This document shows, piece by piece, positions 3,369-37,239 of a stretch of 64,000 nucleotides of DNA. Position 1 is the first letter of the stretch. The number at the start of each line of letters is the position of its first letter. The stretch is from Bacteroidota bacterium (GTDB taxonomy: Bacteria > Bacteroidota > Bacteroidia > Chitinophagales > Chitinophagaceae), in assembly GCA_016868775.1 (NCBI GenBank), contig VGFT01000002.1, positions 259,830 to 323,829 on the forward strand. The letters run 5' to 3'. The position numbers were made by a program, and so were the translations under genes. The notes under the pieces are model-generated. The model made no database searches. It saw only the letters and a list, made by a program, of their open reading frames with translations, and had not been told where the DNA came from.

Positions 3369-6300
3369 ATGCGTCATTTCCGGAACCTTTTACTAGTCAC
3401 CTTCTTGCTATCCGGTTTGGGGGTTGGTGCGCAGGATTTTTCCAACAAAGGCAAGGAGTTTTGGATTCCGTACAGTTATCACGTGGGGGCAGGTGGGGCC
3501 GGTCTGGTAATGACTCTTTACATAACATCTGATGTTGCCACTACTTATCAGGTTGCCATTCATGGGGGTGTTACGATTCAGAGTGGGAGCCTGACGGCCG
3601 GTCAGGTTGTGACCTGTATTGTTCCCAACACGTATTTTATACCTAACGAGGGGTTGTACAGCGGCAAGGCCATTGTGGTCACCTCAGATAAGGGGGTGGT
3701 GGTCTATTCATACATTACACAAAGTGCCGTGAGCGGGGCAACGGTATGCCTGCCTACCAATGTATTGGGAAGAGAGTACTACTCCATGAACTTTACCCAG
3801 GTCTCTAACGCGGCCAATTCAAACTCGTACTTTACGATCATTGCGGCGGAGGACAATACATCCGTTGAGATTACGCCCACCGCCAACACCAAAAATGGTT
3901 GGGTGGCCGGAACGACTTACACCATCAATCTAAACAAAGGGCAGATCTATCAGGTATTGGGTACCCATAACAATACCCCCACGGGTGGCTTGTATACCGG
4001 GGTGGACCTGACCGGTTCCAAGATCAAATCCGTCACTTCCGGACAAAATCCCTGTAAGCGGATTGCCGTTTTCTCCGGTGCTGGTAAGATCCGGATTGGA
4101 ACCAATTGTGGCACCAACAATTCATCGGATAATCTCTATCAGCAACTTTATCCTCAAGCCACTTGGGGCAAGAGCTATTTAACAGTGCCCAGTTTCAGCC
4201 GTCCCAATAATTTTTATCGGGTCATTCGTAGCACCTCTTCCACCAATGTATATGTGAATGGTACGTTGGTGCCGAGCGGCTCTTTCATCAATGGGTATTA
4301 TGAATTCTCTAACGGTACGCCCAATTACATTACGTCGGATGAGCCCATCAGCGTTGCTCAGTATTTTACGACTCAAGGGTGTTCGTCGAACGCTACTCCT
4401 TATGATCCAGACATGATCGTCCTGAATCCGATCGAGCAAAATATTTCAAAAGTCACCCTCGTCAGCTCTAATTTGGTAGCGACCGCCAACCGACAGCATC
4501 ATATGCATGTAATCATGCGAAGCGGCGGAACGGGAATTTCTTCTTTTCGCTTTGATGGGGCGGTGATCCCCAGTACGGCCTCGTGGGTGCCTCACCCGGC
4601 ACTCACCGGCTATTCCTATTTGTATCTATCCAACGTTACGGCAGGGTATCATACCCTATCCTCCGATTCGGGTTTCAACGCGCTTGCCTATGGTTATGCC
4701 GCTGCGGAATCATATGGTTACTCAGCCGGCGCCAACGTAAAGGACCTGTATCAGTACATATCGATCCAGAATCAGTTTGCCACGGTCAATTTTCCTGCTA
4801 CCTGTCGAAATACTCCCTTCTTTTTCTCAATGACCTTCCCGTATCAACCCACACAGATTCAGTGGATATTCGGATCAGCCCTTAACGGACAAGGGATATC
4901 GGATATTACGTTGCCTAATCCAACACCAACTGGAACGGTGGTGGTAAATGGGCGTACCCTCTATATATATAAATTGCCCAATCCTTATACCATCAGTACG
5001 GCAGGAACGTATCAAATCAAAGTACTGGCAACCAACCCCTCTCCGGATGGTTGTACGGGCCTGCAAGAGATCAATTTCGACTTGGATGTACAGCCCACTC
5101 CGATAGCCAATTTTACGCTAAGCAATGTGTGCGACGGGAATCCGGTACAGTTTACCGATGCTTCGTCTACTAACAGCAGGCCGATTTCAACGTATTACTG
5201 GGACTTTGGAGATAACACGACCGGATCCACTCTCAACCCTTCACACTTGTATCCCGGACCAGCCACCTATAACCCGCGCTATTCGATCATCACCGATATT
5301 GGGTGTATATCCGATACGATCACAAAATCGGTTACCGTTTTTCCCAAACCTACGGCAACACTTGTTGGAACAGTTGGCTTGTGTCAGGGAGCTCCGGAAC
5401 CCCAGATTACCTTCACCGGTGCAAATGGAACGCCACCCTATACGTTTACATACACGTTAAACGGCGGGCCTGCACAACAGATCGTGACCACTACCGGAAA
5501 CAGTGTTAGCATAAATGTCCCCACGGCAACCGTGGGCATTTATACCTACTCGCTCACCAATGTAAAGGATGCCAGTTCCCTGGCTTGCGAGCAAGCTCAA
5601 ACAGGCAGTGCAGTGGTTACGGTATTTGCCAAGCCCACCGGAGCTACGATAACCGGTTCCACGGCGGTTTGTCTGAACGGCACGGCACCAACATTGACTT
5701 TAACAGGGCAAGGCGGTTCGGGTAATTATCTATTTACGTATAATTTGAATGGAGGTCCCGATCAAACCCTTAGTTCCACGGGAGGTGCGGCAACCATCAC
5801 CGTTCCGACCAATGCAGTGGGCACTTTCACCTATAATCTTACCAGTGTAGAAGATCCCAGTAATGTTTTGTGCCGTACCAATATAAATACCTCTGCCACG
5901 GTAACGGTAAATCCATTGCCCACGGCTTCTATTACAGGAACCTTGTCTGTTTGTCAGAACGCTACACAACCCAACATAACCTTTACCGGTGCCGGTGGCA
6001 CGGCTCCTTACACGTTTGTTTATACGCTCAATGGAGGATCCAGCCAGCAAGTGATTTCTGGGGCAAACGGGATAGCAACAGTTTCTGTACCTACGGCAAC
6101 GCCGGGTACTTTCACTTATTCTCTGCAGAGCGTAACCGATGCCACGGCCTCTCTGTGTACACAACTTCAATCAGGGAATGCAATCGTAACGGTCAACCCG
6201 CTGCCCACAGCTTCCATTTCCGGAGCCACAGTGGTTTGTCAAAATGCAACCGCACCCACGGTTACGTTCACCGGCGCTGATGGCACGGCGCCCTATACGT

Positions 6301-34164: not shown

Positions 34165-35724
34165 TCAGAGGCTAAAGGCGGTAAATTCTCCGTTTAGGTT
34201 TATTTTTTCTGAGGTGGCGGCTTCTTCCGAGACCTGTACAAGGGTTCCTTCCCGTAGGTAGGTCCTCAATTTTTCAAGGTCGATCGAGAAGATTCGGTCC
34301 TCTTTCGCGAAGGGAACAACTTGTTGTACAGAATCGATGACTGCTTCGAGGATGGGCGAGTTTTTTAGCGGGCGGCGGAACTCAAATCCTTGTACGGCGC
34401 TTAGCAATTCAACGGCCAGGATGTATTCGAGGTTGTCGAGTATCTGGTGCAACTTACGTCCGCTGATCGATCCCATACTTACGTGATCTTCTTGCCCAAG
34501 CGAAGTTGGAATGCTGTCGGCGCTGGCCGGGAAGCAGAGGGTTTTGTTTTCGGTGACCAGCGCGGCGGATGTGTATTGGGGGATCATCAGTCCGGAGTTG
34601 AGTCCCACGTTCTCCATCAAGAGCGTTGGCAATCCAAATTTCCCTTCGATCAGCAGATAGGATCGACGGTCGCTGATGTTTCCGATTTCGGCGGCTGCCA
34701 GACATGCATAGTCGAGTGGCAGGGCCAGGGGTTGGCCGTGAAAATTGCCCCCGCTGATGGTATCATCGGCTCCAAAAAGAATGGGGTTATCGGTAATAGA
34801 ATTCAGTTCTACTTCGGTGAGTTGTTTGAGATGAAGCCAGGCGTTACGCGAAGCGCCATGAACTTGTGGCATGCAACGGATCGAGTACGGGTCTTGCACG
34901 CGGTTGCAGTTGGCGTGACTTTTCAGATTCGCTGAGTTCATCAATAGCATGCGCAATCGATGGGCCACCAGCATGGATCCGTTGAACGGCCGGAGTTGAT
35001 GCAACCGTTCATCGAAGGGAGCGTTGGTGCCTTGGAGGGTTTCGAGGGATAGGGCTCCGATCAGATCGGCTGATTGCAGTATTATATGAAAACGACTTAC
35101 AGCACTGACGGCATGCGCGAGAATGAATTGGGTTCCGTTGATCAGGGCTAGTCCTTCTTTGGGTCCAAGTATCAGCGCCTCCATTCCGGTTTGTTGAAAC
35201 AGCGCGTTGGTTGGCATTCGCTTTCCCTTCCAGATCACCTCCCCCATTCCGATCAACGGCAAAAAAAGATGGGATAAGGGGGCCAGGTCGCCCGAGGCGC
35301 CCACGCTTCCTTTTTCGGGCACGACCGGAAGTGCATCTTCATTTAGGTGCCAGAGAATACGATCCAGGGTTTGGGGACGGATGCCACTGTGTCCGTACGC
35401 AAGGGAATGAAGTTTGGTCAGCAGCATGAGTCGCACGATCTCGGAACTGACCGGCTCTCCTACGCCAACGCTGTGGCTTTGCAGGATCTTGTGTTGAAGA
35501 ATTTCTGCGTCCTCGGCATCGATGGCGGTATGGGCTAATATACCAAAGCCCGTATTGATGCCATAGACGGTCCGATTGCTGTCGAGGATCTGCTGCACCC
35601 AATTGGAAGAAACCTGAATTTTTTCCCGGGCCTTGTCAGATACTACCGGCATACCCGCTCCACGGACCATTCGAATGGCATCTGCCACCGACATACAATC
35701 AACACCAAGCTGAAATGATCTCAT
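34165..35724 (-). CDS. hutH: Histidine ammonia-lyase
   Basis: First enzyme of histidine degradation, releasing ammonia to form urocanate. 519 residues. The MIO cofactor is formed from Ala143-Ser144-Gly145 in GSVGASGDLAPLSHLF; the active-site tyrosine region is VYGINTGFG (Tyr54); further family segments are NGTQFILAHAVSAVSR and SISGRKLHQILDNLEYIL. The start ATG at 35724 follows a stretch of five AGTTTG motifs and sits 74 nt downstream of the split tRNA. hutU lies on the same strand beyond deoD; hutI and hutG are not in the window. Confidence 0.96.
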   Translation of the reverse strand: MRSFQLGVDCMSVADAIRMVRGAGMPVVSDKAREKIQVSSNWVQQILDSNRTVYGINTGFGILAHTAIDAEDAEILQHKILQSHSVGVGEPVSSEIVRLMLLTKLHSLAYGHSGIRPQTLDRILWHLNEDALPVVPEKGSVGASGDLAPLSHLFLPLIGMGEVIWKGKRMPTNALFQQTGMEALILGPKEGLALINGTQFILAHAVSAVSRFHIILQSADLIGALSLETLQGTNAPFDERLHQLRPFNGSMLVAHRLRMLLMNSANLKSHANCNRVQDPYSIRCMPQVHGASRNAWLHLKQLTEVELNSITDNPILFGADDTISGGNFHGQPLALPLDYACLAAAEIGNISDRRSYLLIEGKFGLPTLLMENVGLNSGLMIPQYTSAALVTENKTLCFPASADSIPTSLGQEDHVSMGSISGRKLHQILDNLEYILAVELLSAVQGFEFRRPLKNSPILEAVIDSVQQVVPFAKEDRIFSIDLEKLRTYLREGTLVQVSEEAATSEKINLNGEFTAFSL

Positions 35725-35794: not shown

Positions 35795-35836
35795 CTGTGA
35801 TCCGGATTGGATTCAAACCAATGACCTGCTGCTTAG

Positions 35837-36457
35837 CTTACCCGCTACGGCTTTCGCCGCTCCTATTGGATTTGGGGTCTGGACTATAACTTCACCATTT
35901 CAGGTGTGCCACGTTTAGTCTCTACGGAACCTTTCGAAAATCCTCGGCATAATGTATACGAAGGCGTTGGTAGTTTCGAGGCGTTTTTACTCTCAAGGAG
36001 ATTGAATTCTTGTAATTTTTCGGTTCTAAATAATTACAGGCATCCGTCTGTGGACAATAGATGGCGTATAGATCAATAAACGCTTTGTTTACTTTACGAG
36101 TTATTACGCCATGTGAGGTGCTGTATGAATTAGAAAAAGGGATTTCAATCTTACCGCTTTGTGTCATATTTCTGTATTTCACCTGAACAGATTTACATGT
36201 CCCCTTTTTATAAATAATAAGGTCAAAGGGGGCATGTTCCGTCTCCGGGGTAGAAATCAGAAATCCTTGCAGACACAAATCAATCTTGACCTTCAAAACG
36301 CCCAGATCTCCTTTGGTTTTCGTGTGATGTATGAACATCCATTAAAGATCTAAAGTTTCCTCGGGGTTGCCTTACTACTTATGGGTAGGTTAGGGTTCAC
36401 CGATACGGTGGCATCCACTTGGCCGGTTTTGTTTCCCGGACAAGGCTCCATTTGTTA
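35837..36457 (-). ncRNA. Group I intron (Azoarcus/cyanobacterial tRNA type) in tRNA-Arg
   Basis: 621 nt between the tRNA exons. The 5' exon ends in CUU, which pairs with the guide GAG at 36448-36446 (U-G at the splice site); the last intron base is G (35837), as the mechanism demands. Stems seen: P2 CTTG/CAAG plus CCGG/CCGG; P3 GCCAC(C)GT / ACGTGGC; P4 TCGG/CCGA; P5 CCT/AGG with CTAC/GTAG; P6 GGAAACTTT / AAAGGTTCC (8 of 9 pairs); P7 GACTA (35920-35916) / TAGTC (35886-35882); P8 CACC/GGTG; P9 with CGGC-GAAA-GCCG. The core phrase GTAGAGACTA and the AAGTTATAGTCC phrase match conserved group I core elements. An endonuclease ORF fills the P6 loop. Self-splicing is inferred, not shown. Confidence 0.93.
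35922..36338 (-). CDS. Intron-encoded PD-(D/E)XK homing endonuclease (putative)
   Basis: 138-residue protein encoded wholly inside the group I intron. It starts HHTKTKGDLG, followed by a nuclease-like core: PFDLIIYKKG (Asp39) and SVQVKYR (Gln52, Lys54), an order of KGD...D...QxK like the PD-(D/E)XK nucleases tied to group I introns (the I-Ssp6803I type, whose known host is also an intron in a tRNA gene). The C-terminus is basic and ends in RLRIHYAEDFRKVP. Its last four codons and the stop form the 3' strand of P6 and the start of the core joining region. The ORF is more AT-rich than its neighbours. Probable role: cutting intronless tRNA-Arg alleles to spread the intron. No membrane segment or signal peptide. 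Confidence 0.82.
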   Translation of the reverse strand: MFIHHTKTKGDLGVLKVKIDLCLQGFLISTPETEHAPFDLIIYKKGTCKSVQVKYRNMTQSGKIEIPFSNSYSTSHGVITRKVNKAFIDLYAIYCPQTDACNYLEPKNYKNSISLRVKTPRNYQRLRIHYAEDFRKVP

Positions 36458-36513
36458 AAGGCAGCTGCTCTATTCAACTGAGCTACCGGACCAATAAAAC
36501 AAAGAACCAATCA

Positions 36514-36567: not shown

Positions 36568-37239
36568 ATGTCAGTACAAATCCATCCTACTTGGAAAGCG
36601 GTGTTGAAGAAGGAGTTTGATTCGGAGTATTTCCAGCAATTGGCTACCCATATCCGTACGGAGAAGGAATTGGGTCGCACGATCTATCCGCCCGGACCGC
36701 TTATTTTCAATGCGTATAACTGCACGCCTTTCGATCAGGTAAAGGTGGTGATACTCGGGCAGGATCCTTATCACGGGCCCGGACAGGCACACGGCCTCTG
36801 TTTTTCGGTTCCGCCCGGCGTACCGCCTCCCCCATCGCTGCAAAATATATTTAAGGAACTTGCCTCTGATCTGGGACTACGTAAACCGGATCAGGGAGAT
36901 CTTACAGCGTGGACCCGCCAAGGGGTCTTTTTAATAAATGCCTCTCTGACCGTTCGAGCCAGTGAGCCCATGAGTCACGCTCAAATTGGTTGGGCACGCT
37001 TCACCGATGCGACCATCCGTGTTTTATCGGAGAAAAGGGAACACCTGGTCTTTTTGTTATGGGGGAAATTTGCACAGGAAAAAGCTTCCTTAATAGATGA
37101 GAATAAAAACCTGATCCTGAAAGCGGCACACCCCTCTCCGCTGTCAGCTCACAATGGTTTTCTGGGAAGCCGGCCCTTTTCACAAACCAATGCGTACCTT
37201 GTTACACACAAGGTGAATCCCATAGATTGGAGTGTATGA
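36568..37239 (+). CDS. ung: Uracil-DNA glycosylase
   Basis: Removes uracil from DNA as the first step of base-excision repair. 223 residues, family 1. The water-activating motif is GQDPYHGPGQAHGL and the DNA-intercalating loop is HPSPLSAH; INASLT completes the set. The start ATG lies 7 nt after TAGTTTG, a shortened promoter-like element. Its stop overlaps the plsC start by 4 bp (ATGA), so the two are coupled. Confidence 0.97.
   Translation: MSVQIHPTWKAVLKKEFDSEYFQQLATHIRTEKELGRTIYPPGPLIFNAYNCTPFDQVKVVILGQDPYHGPGQAHGLCFSVPPGVPPPPSLQNIFKELASDLGLRKPDQGDLTAWTRQGVFLINASLTVRASEPMSHAQIGWARFTDATIRVLSEKREHLVFLLWGKFAQEKASLIDENKNLILKAAHPSPLSAHNGFLGSRPFSQTNAYLVTHKVNPIDWSV

Follow-up and report, generated by a model that had tools for sequence, protein, structure and literature searches.

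Small group I introns of bacterial tRNA genes are inserted in the anticodon loop and combine a short guide with a P3/P7 core, and an intron is also known in the tRNA-Arg(CCU) of Agrobacterium. The title of Bonocora and Shub 2001 reportedly places the tRNA-fMet intron at the anticodon region, and I-TslI / T3 gene 5.3 is said to be an example of collaborative homing. Synthetic home-and-rescue or cleave-and-rescue drives encode a nuclease directed against a gene, along with a differently spelled spare of that gene. Three papers describe the closest systems. I-Ssp6803I is a 150-aa PD-(D/E)XK homing endonuclease of a group I intron in the cyanobacterial tRNA-fMet of Synechocystis PCC 6803 (PMC1995217), and the fMet intron sits in the anticodon region or loop (PMC8450103). 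Small tRNA group I introns are recorded in Azoarcus tRNA-Ile, cyanobacterial tRNA-Leu and the tRNA-Ile2 of Acidovorax and Burkholderia (PMC3984707, PMC8450103). Collaborative homing and free-standing endonucleases are presented there as phage cases, and the assembly of mobile introns from a ribozyme and an endonuclease as an open question with two proposed routes from phage genes (PMC3984707).

The window, i.e., the whole 64-kb stretch of Chitinophagaceae DNA analyzed here, contains on its minus strand a 74-nt tRNA-Arg(UCU) gene which, as confirmed at the level of sequence, is interrupted by a 621-nt group I intron (Table 1). As in the I-Ssp6803I system, a tRNA gene is split by a group I intron that encodes a PD-(D/E)XK endonuclease, the fold being the same over most of its length; unlike that system, the gene is tRNA-Arg(UCU) rather than fMet, the phyla are others, the structural-alignment identity is about 18%, and the window family also occurs free of introns. 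It shares with the small tRNA introns its nature as a group I intron in a bacterial tRNA, yet those are described for Ile, Leu and fMet, and the passages concerned name neither tRNA-Arg(UCU) nor Bacteroidota (PMC3984707, PMC8450103). As in collaborative homing, endonucleases of the window family are intron-borne as well as free-standing at the same target gene; in contrast to the phage cases, the target gene encodes a tRNA and is occupied in several bacterial phyla as well as on viral contigs, and endonuclease-free introns lie beside the free gene in Neobacillus and Cytobacillus. The viral cassettes described below resemble the synthetic rescue drives, being composed of a nuclease and a differently spelled spare copy of the target gene, but they are natural, the gene is that of a tRNA, and the addition at the L151 site is 569 nt. 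Among the matches listed in a literature search (titles and abstract openings, most subscription papers lying outside), neither a bacterial tRNA-Arg(UCU) group I intron nor an endonuclease with a spare tRNA appeared, which is not proof of absence.

Table 1. Features of the interrupted tRNA-Arg(UCU) locus (window coordinates)
Feature	Position	Strand	Description	Basis
tRNA-Arg(UCU) 5' exon	36458..36492	-	acceptor 5' strand, D arm, anticodon stem 5' strand, C32 U33 U34	ARAGORN intron mode; exon motif in intron-borne relatives
tRNA-Arg(UCU) 3' exon	35798..35836	-	C35 U36, remaining anticodon arm, variable loop, T arm, acceptor 3' strand, discriminator A; CCA not encoded	ARAGORN; 39-nt half matches in 16/16 intron genomes
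Group I intron, 621 nt	35837..36457	-	between U34 and C35	ARAGORN; RF00028 at 15.8 bits, short of its cut-off; stems covarying across 43 distinct related cores
Internal guide GAG (P1)	36446..36448	-	pairs with exon CUU 36460-36458; U.G at splice site	
P3 5' strand UGCCAC	36408..36413	-	pairs with GUGGCA 35912-35907	
P6 5' strand GGAAAC	36355..36360	-	pairs with GGUUCC 35931-35926	by sequence
PD-(D/E)XK homing endonuclease (by homology), 138 aa	35922..36338	-	in P6 loop, between GGAAAC (36360-36355) and GGTTCC (35931-35926)	PF11645 PDDEXK_5
P6 3' strand GGUUCC	35926..35931	-	final codons of endonuclease ORF	
P7 5' strand GACUA	35916..35920	-	pairs with UAGUC 35886-35882	invariant 43/43 but extraction anchor
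P3 3' strand GUGGCA	35907..35912	-		covariation across 43 cores
P8 5' strand CACC	35903..35906	-	pairs with GGUG 35896-35893	
P7 3' strand UAGUC	35882..35886	-		invariant 43/43; extraction anchor likewise
hutH (presumed; named from its sequence)	34165..35724	-	downstream neighbour of tRNA	tblastn against loci with and without intron
Uracil-DNA glycosylase (UDG) gene	36568..37239	+	upstream neighbour of tRNA	PF03167; synteny

Run without introns, ARAGORN finds zero tRNAs in the window; with introns allowed it returns a single tRNA-Arg(tct), whose 75 bases run one beyond the discriminator and whose 621-nt intron, once removed, leaves the junction gcctt/ctaag. The first-pass annotation had joined two halves into a 74-nt tRNA-Arg(UCU) by removing 621 nt, and the ARAGORN intron mode arrives at identical coordinates, the joined exons (36492-36458 and 35836-35798) forming the full cloverleaf of a tRNA-Arg with the anticodon UCU.

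That the intron is spliced we infer from its sequence and from comparison with its relatives. A U precedes the intron and its final base is a G. Rfam at the gathering score gave zero hits in the window, and RF00028, the family to which the first-pass annotation had looked for verification, scores the intron at 15.8 bits (E=0.2) against a curated cut-off of 50. Within the 2.03-Mb genome the window intron is the only sequence that RF00028 matches at E values up to 10, a threshold at which 8 of 14 control genomes also match, two of these above the cut-off. The gathering score was reached by none of seven relatives tested, and an endonuclease-free relative (Neobacillus L069) also stays below the cut-off at 24.9 bits (E=2.1e-4). 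Since the Rfam score lies below its cut-off, the stems were compared across related introns instead. From 65 candidate cores, 13 without the anchor (mostly free-standing; L087, L094 and L104 are intron-borne) and four more without a 3' match (L070, L078, L081, L093) were dropped, which left 48 and, after removal of five identical ones, 43 distinct cores. The motifs used for extraction (exon UU, P4/P6, the two P7 strands, final G) were required or nearly so; the guide, P2, P3, P8 and P9 were left free. The exon UU, the P4 3' and P6 motifs and P7 being anchors, their constancy is partly built in and counts little; the final G of the 48 cores was likewise demanded by the script.

Compensatory change is observed in P2, P3, P8 and P9 among the 43 distinct related introns. 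P3 forms six of six pairs in every core, with two-sided change at five of the six, against 0.48 for its best slid version and a mean of 0.74 (maximum 0.78) for shuffled ones. All four P8 pairs are likewise formed in 43/43 cores, with two-sided change at three (shuffled mean 0.86); P2 is 0.99 formed, changing on both sides at 3/4 pairs, and P9 0.87 formed, doing so at 4/4 (shuffles 0.63). The P1 guide has C-G and U.G in 43/43 and U-A in 42/43 distinct cores (exon UU demanded, guide not), with pairing still at 0.91 when slid by 2. Four pairs of P6, partly demanded by the script, are 0.936 formed, equal to the shuffled maximum of 0.936, and its fifth position, A-G, never pairs; P7, like P6, does no better than shuffles. 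Counted over cells, P3, P4, P7 and P8 are formed at 1.00 and P6 at 0.94, compared with at most 0.70 (P6) and 0.55 (others) in slid versions, and strong covariation within the P3/P7 core with P4, P6 and P8 is contributed by P3 and P8 only. The sequence and the 43-core comparison bear out what had been proposed on first reading, namely the stem order, the U before and the G ending the intron, and the pairing of guide GAG with exon CUU. Variation occurs as well: in L087, where a strict anchor is lacking, a P7 variant seen by eye, GGCCA/UGGUC, was the ground for counting the locus as intron-borne. ARAGORN places the insertion two bases further on in two Ignavibacteria loci, and the full reading of L078 (Ignavibacteria) gives the junction CTTCT/AAGC with a guide GGA that pairs with UCU.

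An additional set of interrupted tRNA genes occurs in the window's genus, where tRNA-Leu(UAA) is split by introns of 234-736 nt in five genomes (L173-L177 in G017, G025, G023, G029 and G041). Their 3' part resembles the core of the window intron and is group I-like, and tRNA-Gly(GCC) adjoins four of the five. The intron of L176 (G029) holds an HNH-like reading frame (by eye), and G041 has both the tRNA-Arg and the tRNA-Leu introns.

The 138-aa reading frame in the intron matches Pfam PF11645 PDDEXK_5 over residues 4-135 (E=1.4e-28), a match which, together with its position between the P6 strands, upholds the early view of a PD-(D/E)XK nuclease ORF in the P6 loop. An AlphaFold model built with 53 homologues has a mean pLDDT of 88, and its best PDB hit in Foldseek is 2OST, I-Ssp6803I (E=3.6e-10, TM 0.76, 18% identity). 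The same entry alone was recovered by a profile search (hmmsearch) of PDB sequences (E=8.4e-9); phmmer with the single window protein returned from the PDB two cytochrome chains only (E=0.16). By modelled fold and by sequence family, then, the protein belongs to the I-Ssp6803I type of PD-(D/E)XK enzymes, and it may be expected to cleave DNA. Residues H4, T6, K7, K9, G10, D11, E34, H35, F38, D39 and K54 are invariant in 53 endonuclease sequences, and Q52 is nearly so. Among PHROG families, phrog_5018, listed as of unknown function, is matched by the window protein and by the three viral copies tested; PADLOC left the window protein unmatched.

Homologues of the endonuclease were collected from named genomes with an alignment (100 loci, 80 kept; a single-protein scan of the same contigs found no homologue) and from viral contigs (23 loci from two scans); plasmids gave no match. 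Nearly all of the 103 homologous loci in these two collections lie inside, or within 250 nt of, tRNA-Arg(UCU), and three arrangements are seen: the endonuclease inside the intron, beside an endonuclease-free intron, or without any intron. The genome loci comprise 42/80 intron-borne copies (38 plain, L070 and L104 with N runs, L093 and L094 decayed), 3/80 in which the gene lies some 120-190 nt downstream of an endonuclease-free intron (Neobacillus L069 and L079, Cytobacillus L076), 34/80 that stand free at no more than 250 nt from an intact tRNA-Arg(UCU), and 1/80 at a distance of 953 nt. Cyanobacteria account for 22 of the free-standing copies, whose listed identities are 30-38%, for most of them across just 103 residues. 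The intron-borne tree rows carry the labels of seven phyla (Bacteroidota, Bacillota, Pseudomonadota, Ignavibacteriota, Rhodothermota, Chloroflexota and Acidobacteriota), many of the host records being MAGs in which misbinning is possible. This breadth, seven phyla plus the intron-free placements, could not be seen on first reading. A carrier in culture is Niastella yeongjuensis DSM 17621 (L062). On viral contigs, 2 of the 23 loci are intron-borne (L136, L195), 12 are free-standing beside or overlapping tRNA-Arg(UCU), and nine lie in cassettes; in Acinetobacter phage Herod a 40% identical endonuclease directly follows tRNA-Arg(tct). Four tested neighbours of L136 yielded one weak PHROG match. 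L195 (IMGVR_UViG_2901228672_000001, listed as viral) has its intron-bearing tRNA-Arg at the extreme end of the contig, perhaps a prophage edge.

The assignment of loci to these arrangements required some correction of program output. The ARAGORN intron mode labelled some intron-bearing tRNAs Leu, Ser, SeC or Stop, and its intron spans in L085, L106, L108 and L113 (genome) and in L137, L138 and L144 (viral) are false; these loci were counted as free-standing because an intact tRNA adjoins the gene. The group I anchor was not found in L085, L106 and L108, nor were tRNA halves found beside L085, L106, L108, L113, L138 and L144. For the tRNA next to L085 and L137 ARAGORN gives CTA, the loop CTTCTAA being read by eye as UCU. 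The idea that free-standing loci generally conceal orphan tRNA halves was dropped after a search of 39 loci, in which 5' and 3' halves stood at the edges in L141, L148, L151, L152 and the N-broken intron of L104; L094 showed a 3' half, and L114, L134 and L051 gave one hit each. In L051 (G472) and L134, both from Bacteroidota and possibly one genome, a PDDEXK protein that branches with the cyanobacterial ones, 216 aa long in L051, is separated by about 950 nt from an intact tRNA-Arg(UCU).

A tree of 74 endonucleases implies at least five changes between the intron-borne and free states, two of them forced by well-supported branches; it includes the frame-broken L110 as a long branch, and, with few columns and many open branches, it serves as a guide only. 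L097, which has a stop codon, is left out of A3/A4. The free copies of Neobacillus cluster with intron-borne Bacillota copies, and the endonuclease-free intron of L069 retains the final codons of the ORF. Taken together, these two sequence features indicate that in Neobacillus the endonuclease probably moved out of the intron, the intron staying behind.

Nine viral contigs, with five distinct sequences, present a further arrangement in which the endonuclease and a complete spare tRNA lie inside the anticodon loop of another tRNA. L141-L143 do not differ within the stretch compared, and L148-L150 are near-identical; in these contigs, as in L151 and L152, a spare tRNA-Arg(UCU) and the endonuclease are placed inside another tRNA-Arg, whose upstream half ends in ...TTCT and whose downstream half begins with TAAG. 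L193 shows the mirror order, endonuclease and then spare tRNA, with less certain edges; the acceptor strands of its outer tRNA pair 7/7 (by eye, G-U included), the anticodon cannot be fixed, and a neighbour is a phage-type helicase. A viral scan for the 16-base left edge gave 14 hits, the 5 cassettes and 9 by chance. Searching with 18 bases of the L151/L152 3' half retrieved 18 contigs, of which two are the cassettes and 16 have an intact tRNA-Arg(tct) without endonuclease in the stretch examined. One of the intact sites, L235, represents an empty allele: the distance is 54 nt there vs 623 nt in L151, so that the occupied site is 569 nt longer. Its anticodon stem is unlike the halves beside the L151 cassette, a difference that might stem from co-conversion of flanks from the donor. 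The same endonuclease (87.6%) is carried by Synechococcus phage Sf-FR1 (host WH8102), along with a tRNA-Arg and a short left-half remnant.

An unlikely alternative, though one to be weighed, is that the cassettes are products of rearrangement within tRNA arrays and not of homing. They do occur in tRNA-rich regions, the L148-type outer halves are unpaired in the acceptor stem (ARAGORN finds no tRNA in the joined flanks), and L235 and L151 agree only near the tRNA, their flanks differing beyond about 60 nt and the contigs over 400 nt; the anticodon stem of L141 is damaged. Rearrangement accounts poorly for edges at the same anticodon-loop bases in four of the five distinct cassettes (L193 being less certain), for outer halves in L151 and L152 that complete a cloverleaf when joined, with a single additional T where they meet, for an intact tRNA in L235 whose near flanks equal those of L151 at 57/60 (left) and 60/60 (right) positions, counted by eye, and for the opposite order of endonuclease and spare tRNA in L193. 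The stem of the spare tRNA reads TTCGC/GCGAA, vs ACTGC/GCAGT in the outer tRNA of L151, a stem that also surrounds many Chitinophagaceae introns, and the altered stem may protect the spare tRNA from cutting.

Further elements were seen around the cassettes. A 12-base inverted repeat, CTTAGAACAACC / GGTTGTTCTAAG, encloses the spare tRNA in L141, L148, L151, L152 and L155 (changed in L141 and L152), as if its acceptor stem had been lengthened. In the same five loci the endonuclease is preceded by TATAAATA, which we take to resemble a T4 late promoter. Past the endonuclease stop in L144, at 3433-3540, lies a fragment resembling the 3' end of a tmRNA (by eye).

Among the closer relatives of the host, the intron shows a sporadic distribution. 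Endonuclease homologues are present in 6/147 relatives and in 16/394 genomes of the family (own included), scattered over genera; 13 of the 16 lie in a tRNA-Arg(UCU) intron, G051, G371 and G472 being the exceptions, and exon motifs identify tRNA-Arg(UCU) at the family-level intron loci. A pattern for the intact anticodon arm, allowing one mismatch, occurs in 80 of the 147 genomes and in 0/6 carriers, but 61 non-carriers also lack it, and its absence alone therefore proves little. At distances of up to about 3 kb, the tRNA has both hutH and UDG as neighbours at 5/15 intron loci and 3/8 intron-free loci, one of the two at 4/15 and 3/8, and neither at 6/15 and 2/8. The three intron-free loci with both neighbours belong to the window's own genus, and since these relatives have an intact site between hutH and UDG, occupied and empty alleles exist at one locus and the intron, by this comparison of sequences, is sporadic and probably mobile.

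The opposite view, that of a vertically inherited and now immobile tRNA intron with the ORF as a relic, draws on decayed copies: the ORF of G015 is in two frames, a large deletion in G274 has left only both protein ends, and Sporosarcina L093 and L094 are broken. We consider it improbable, in view of the scattered homologues and of the intact sites within the genus. The closeness of an endonuclease to the window copy is not mirrored by GyrA identity (r=0.23 in 13 genomes, -0.20 minus the closest; the broken G015 and G274 excluded, and split-contig GyrA values of G040, G027 and G353 merged by hand). Bacillota copies are 47-57% identical to the window endonuclease, the best (55-57%) approaching the value of 59% for two copies from the same genus; the remaining intact copy of the genus stands at 67%. 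The endonuclease is furthermore held at a dN/dS of 0.06-0.13 in eight pairs, with dS above 1.3 in 4/8, as is expected less of a relic than of a protein under selection.

Integrases use the 3' end of tRNA genes, and it could be argued that the PDDEXK_5 protein is no homing enzyme, being found near tRNA-Arg(UCU) since tRNA genes are integration sites. The 34/80 genome loci that merely adjoin the tRNA, and several homologues among viral tRNA arrays, would fit such a reading, which is nonetheless very improbable given that the isoacceptor is nearly always the same, that insertion occurs inside the anticodon loop and not at the 3' end, and that the fold is that of I-Ssp6803I.

The importance of splicing to the host depends on other copies of the gene. 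A second tRNA-Arg(UCU), whose search the first-pass annotation had called for, was not found in the 2.03-Mb genome (10 contigs) by RF00005 tRNAs, anticodons, the intact-arm pattern or a tRNA query: the Arg anticodons among 32 RF00005 tRNAs include CCT, ACG and CCG, with no TCT, and the pattern search detected no intact tRNA-Arg(UCU) anticodon arm. The 32 tRNAs also lack Asp, Ile and Ala(UGC) and include only two CAU, so contig gaps or further interrupted genes are possible. The tRNA-Arg query was run in 24 genomes, 16 intron-bearing (own included) and eight intron-free controls. In 16/16 intron genomes it matches as two halves meeting or slightly overlapping at 35/36, with additional weaker matches of at most 86% to other tRNAs, so that no carrier shows an intact copy; in 8/8 controls it matches at 92-100% over 70-74 nt. 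The view that the split gene is a dead tRNA and AGA is read by another is scarcely credible: an intact copy could sit in a gap of this 10-contig assembly, as the missing Asp, Ile and Ala(UGC) suggest, yet none appears in any of the 16 intron genomes, the exons keep a full cloverleaf, and AGA is in use, accounting for 44 of the 818 Arg codons counted across 29 long mechanical ORFs in the window.

The best explanation of the whole, to which we assign a probability of about 0.9, is a self-splicing, homing intron with an endonuclease lineage dedicated to tRNA-Arg(UCU), whose insertion is tolerated in several ways. Anatomy, distribution, empty sites, cassettes and selection on the protein are all read here from sequence, and the following course of events is proposed for them. 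The precursor tRNA would be transcribed, the intron would fold (P1-P9) and bind guanosine, and it would then excise itself and join U34 to C35, making AGA codons readable. The PD-(D/E)XK protein, a distant relative of I-Ssp6803I, would cut those tRNA-Arg(UCU) genes that lack the intron, doing so at the anticodon loop, and the intron would be copied into the target during repair. The insertion may be tolerated inside the ribozyme, or beside the tRNA with an endonuclease-free intron; in phages, a complete spare tRNA-Arg(UCU) packed with the endonuclease may replace the copy that is broken.

It appears fairly likely that a single endonuclease lineage, specialised on the anticodon arm of tRNA-Arg(UCU), meets the cost of its insertion in two ways: with a self-splicing intron in bacteria of seven phyla or, in phages without a ribozyme, with a differently spelled spare tRNA, homing there destroying and replacing the resident at once as a natural form of home-and-rescue. 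Exit from the intron, with the intron left behind, would have taken place in Bacillaceae. One family at one tRNA site is met in several states, i.e., alone beside the gene, in an intron, next to an intron minus its endonuclease, and with a spare gene, and all of these states can be tested with the same short target. The work further offers a proposed function for the phage family phrog_5018. If splicing is real, the decoding of AGA in the carrier bacteria depends on a ribozyme.
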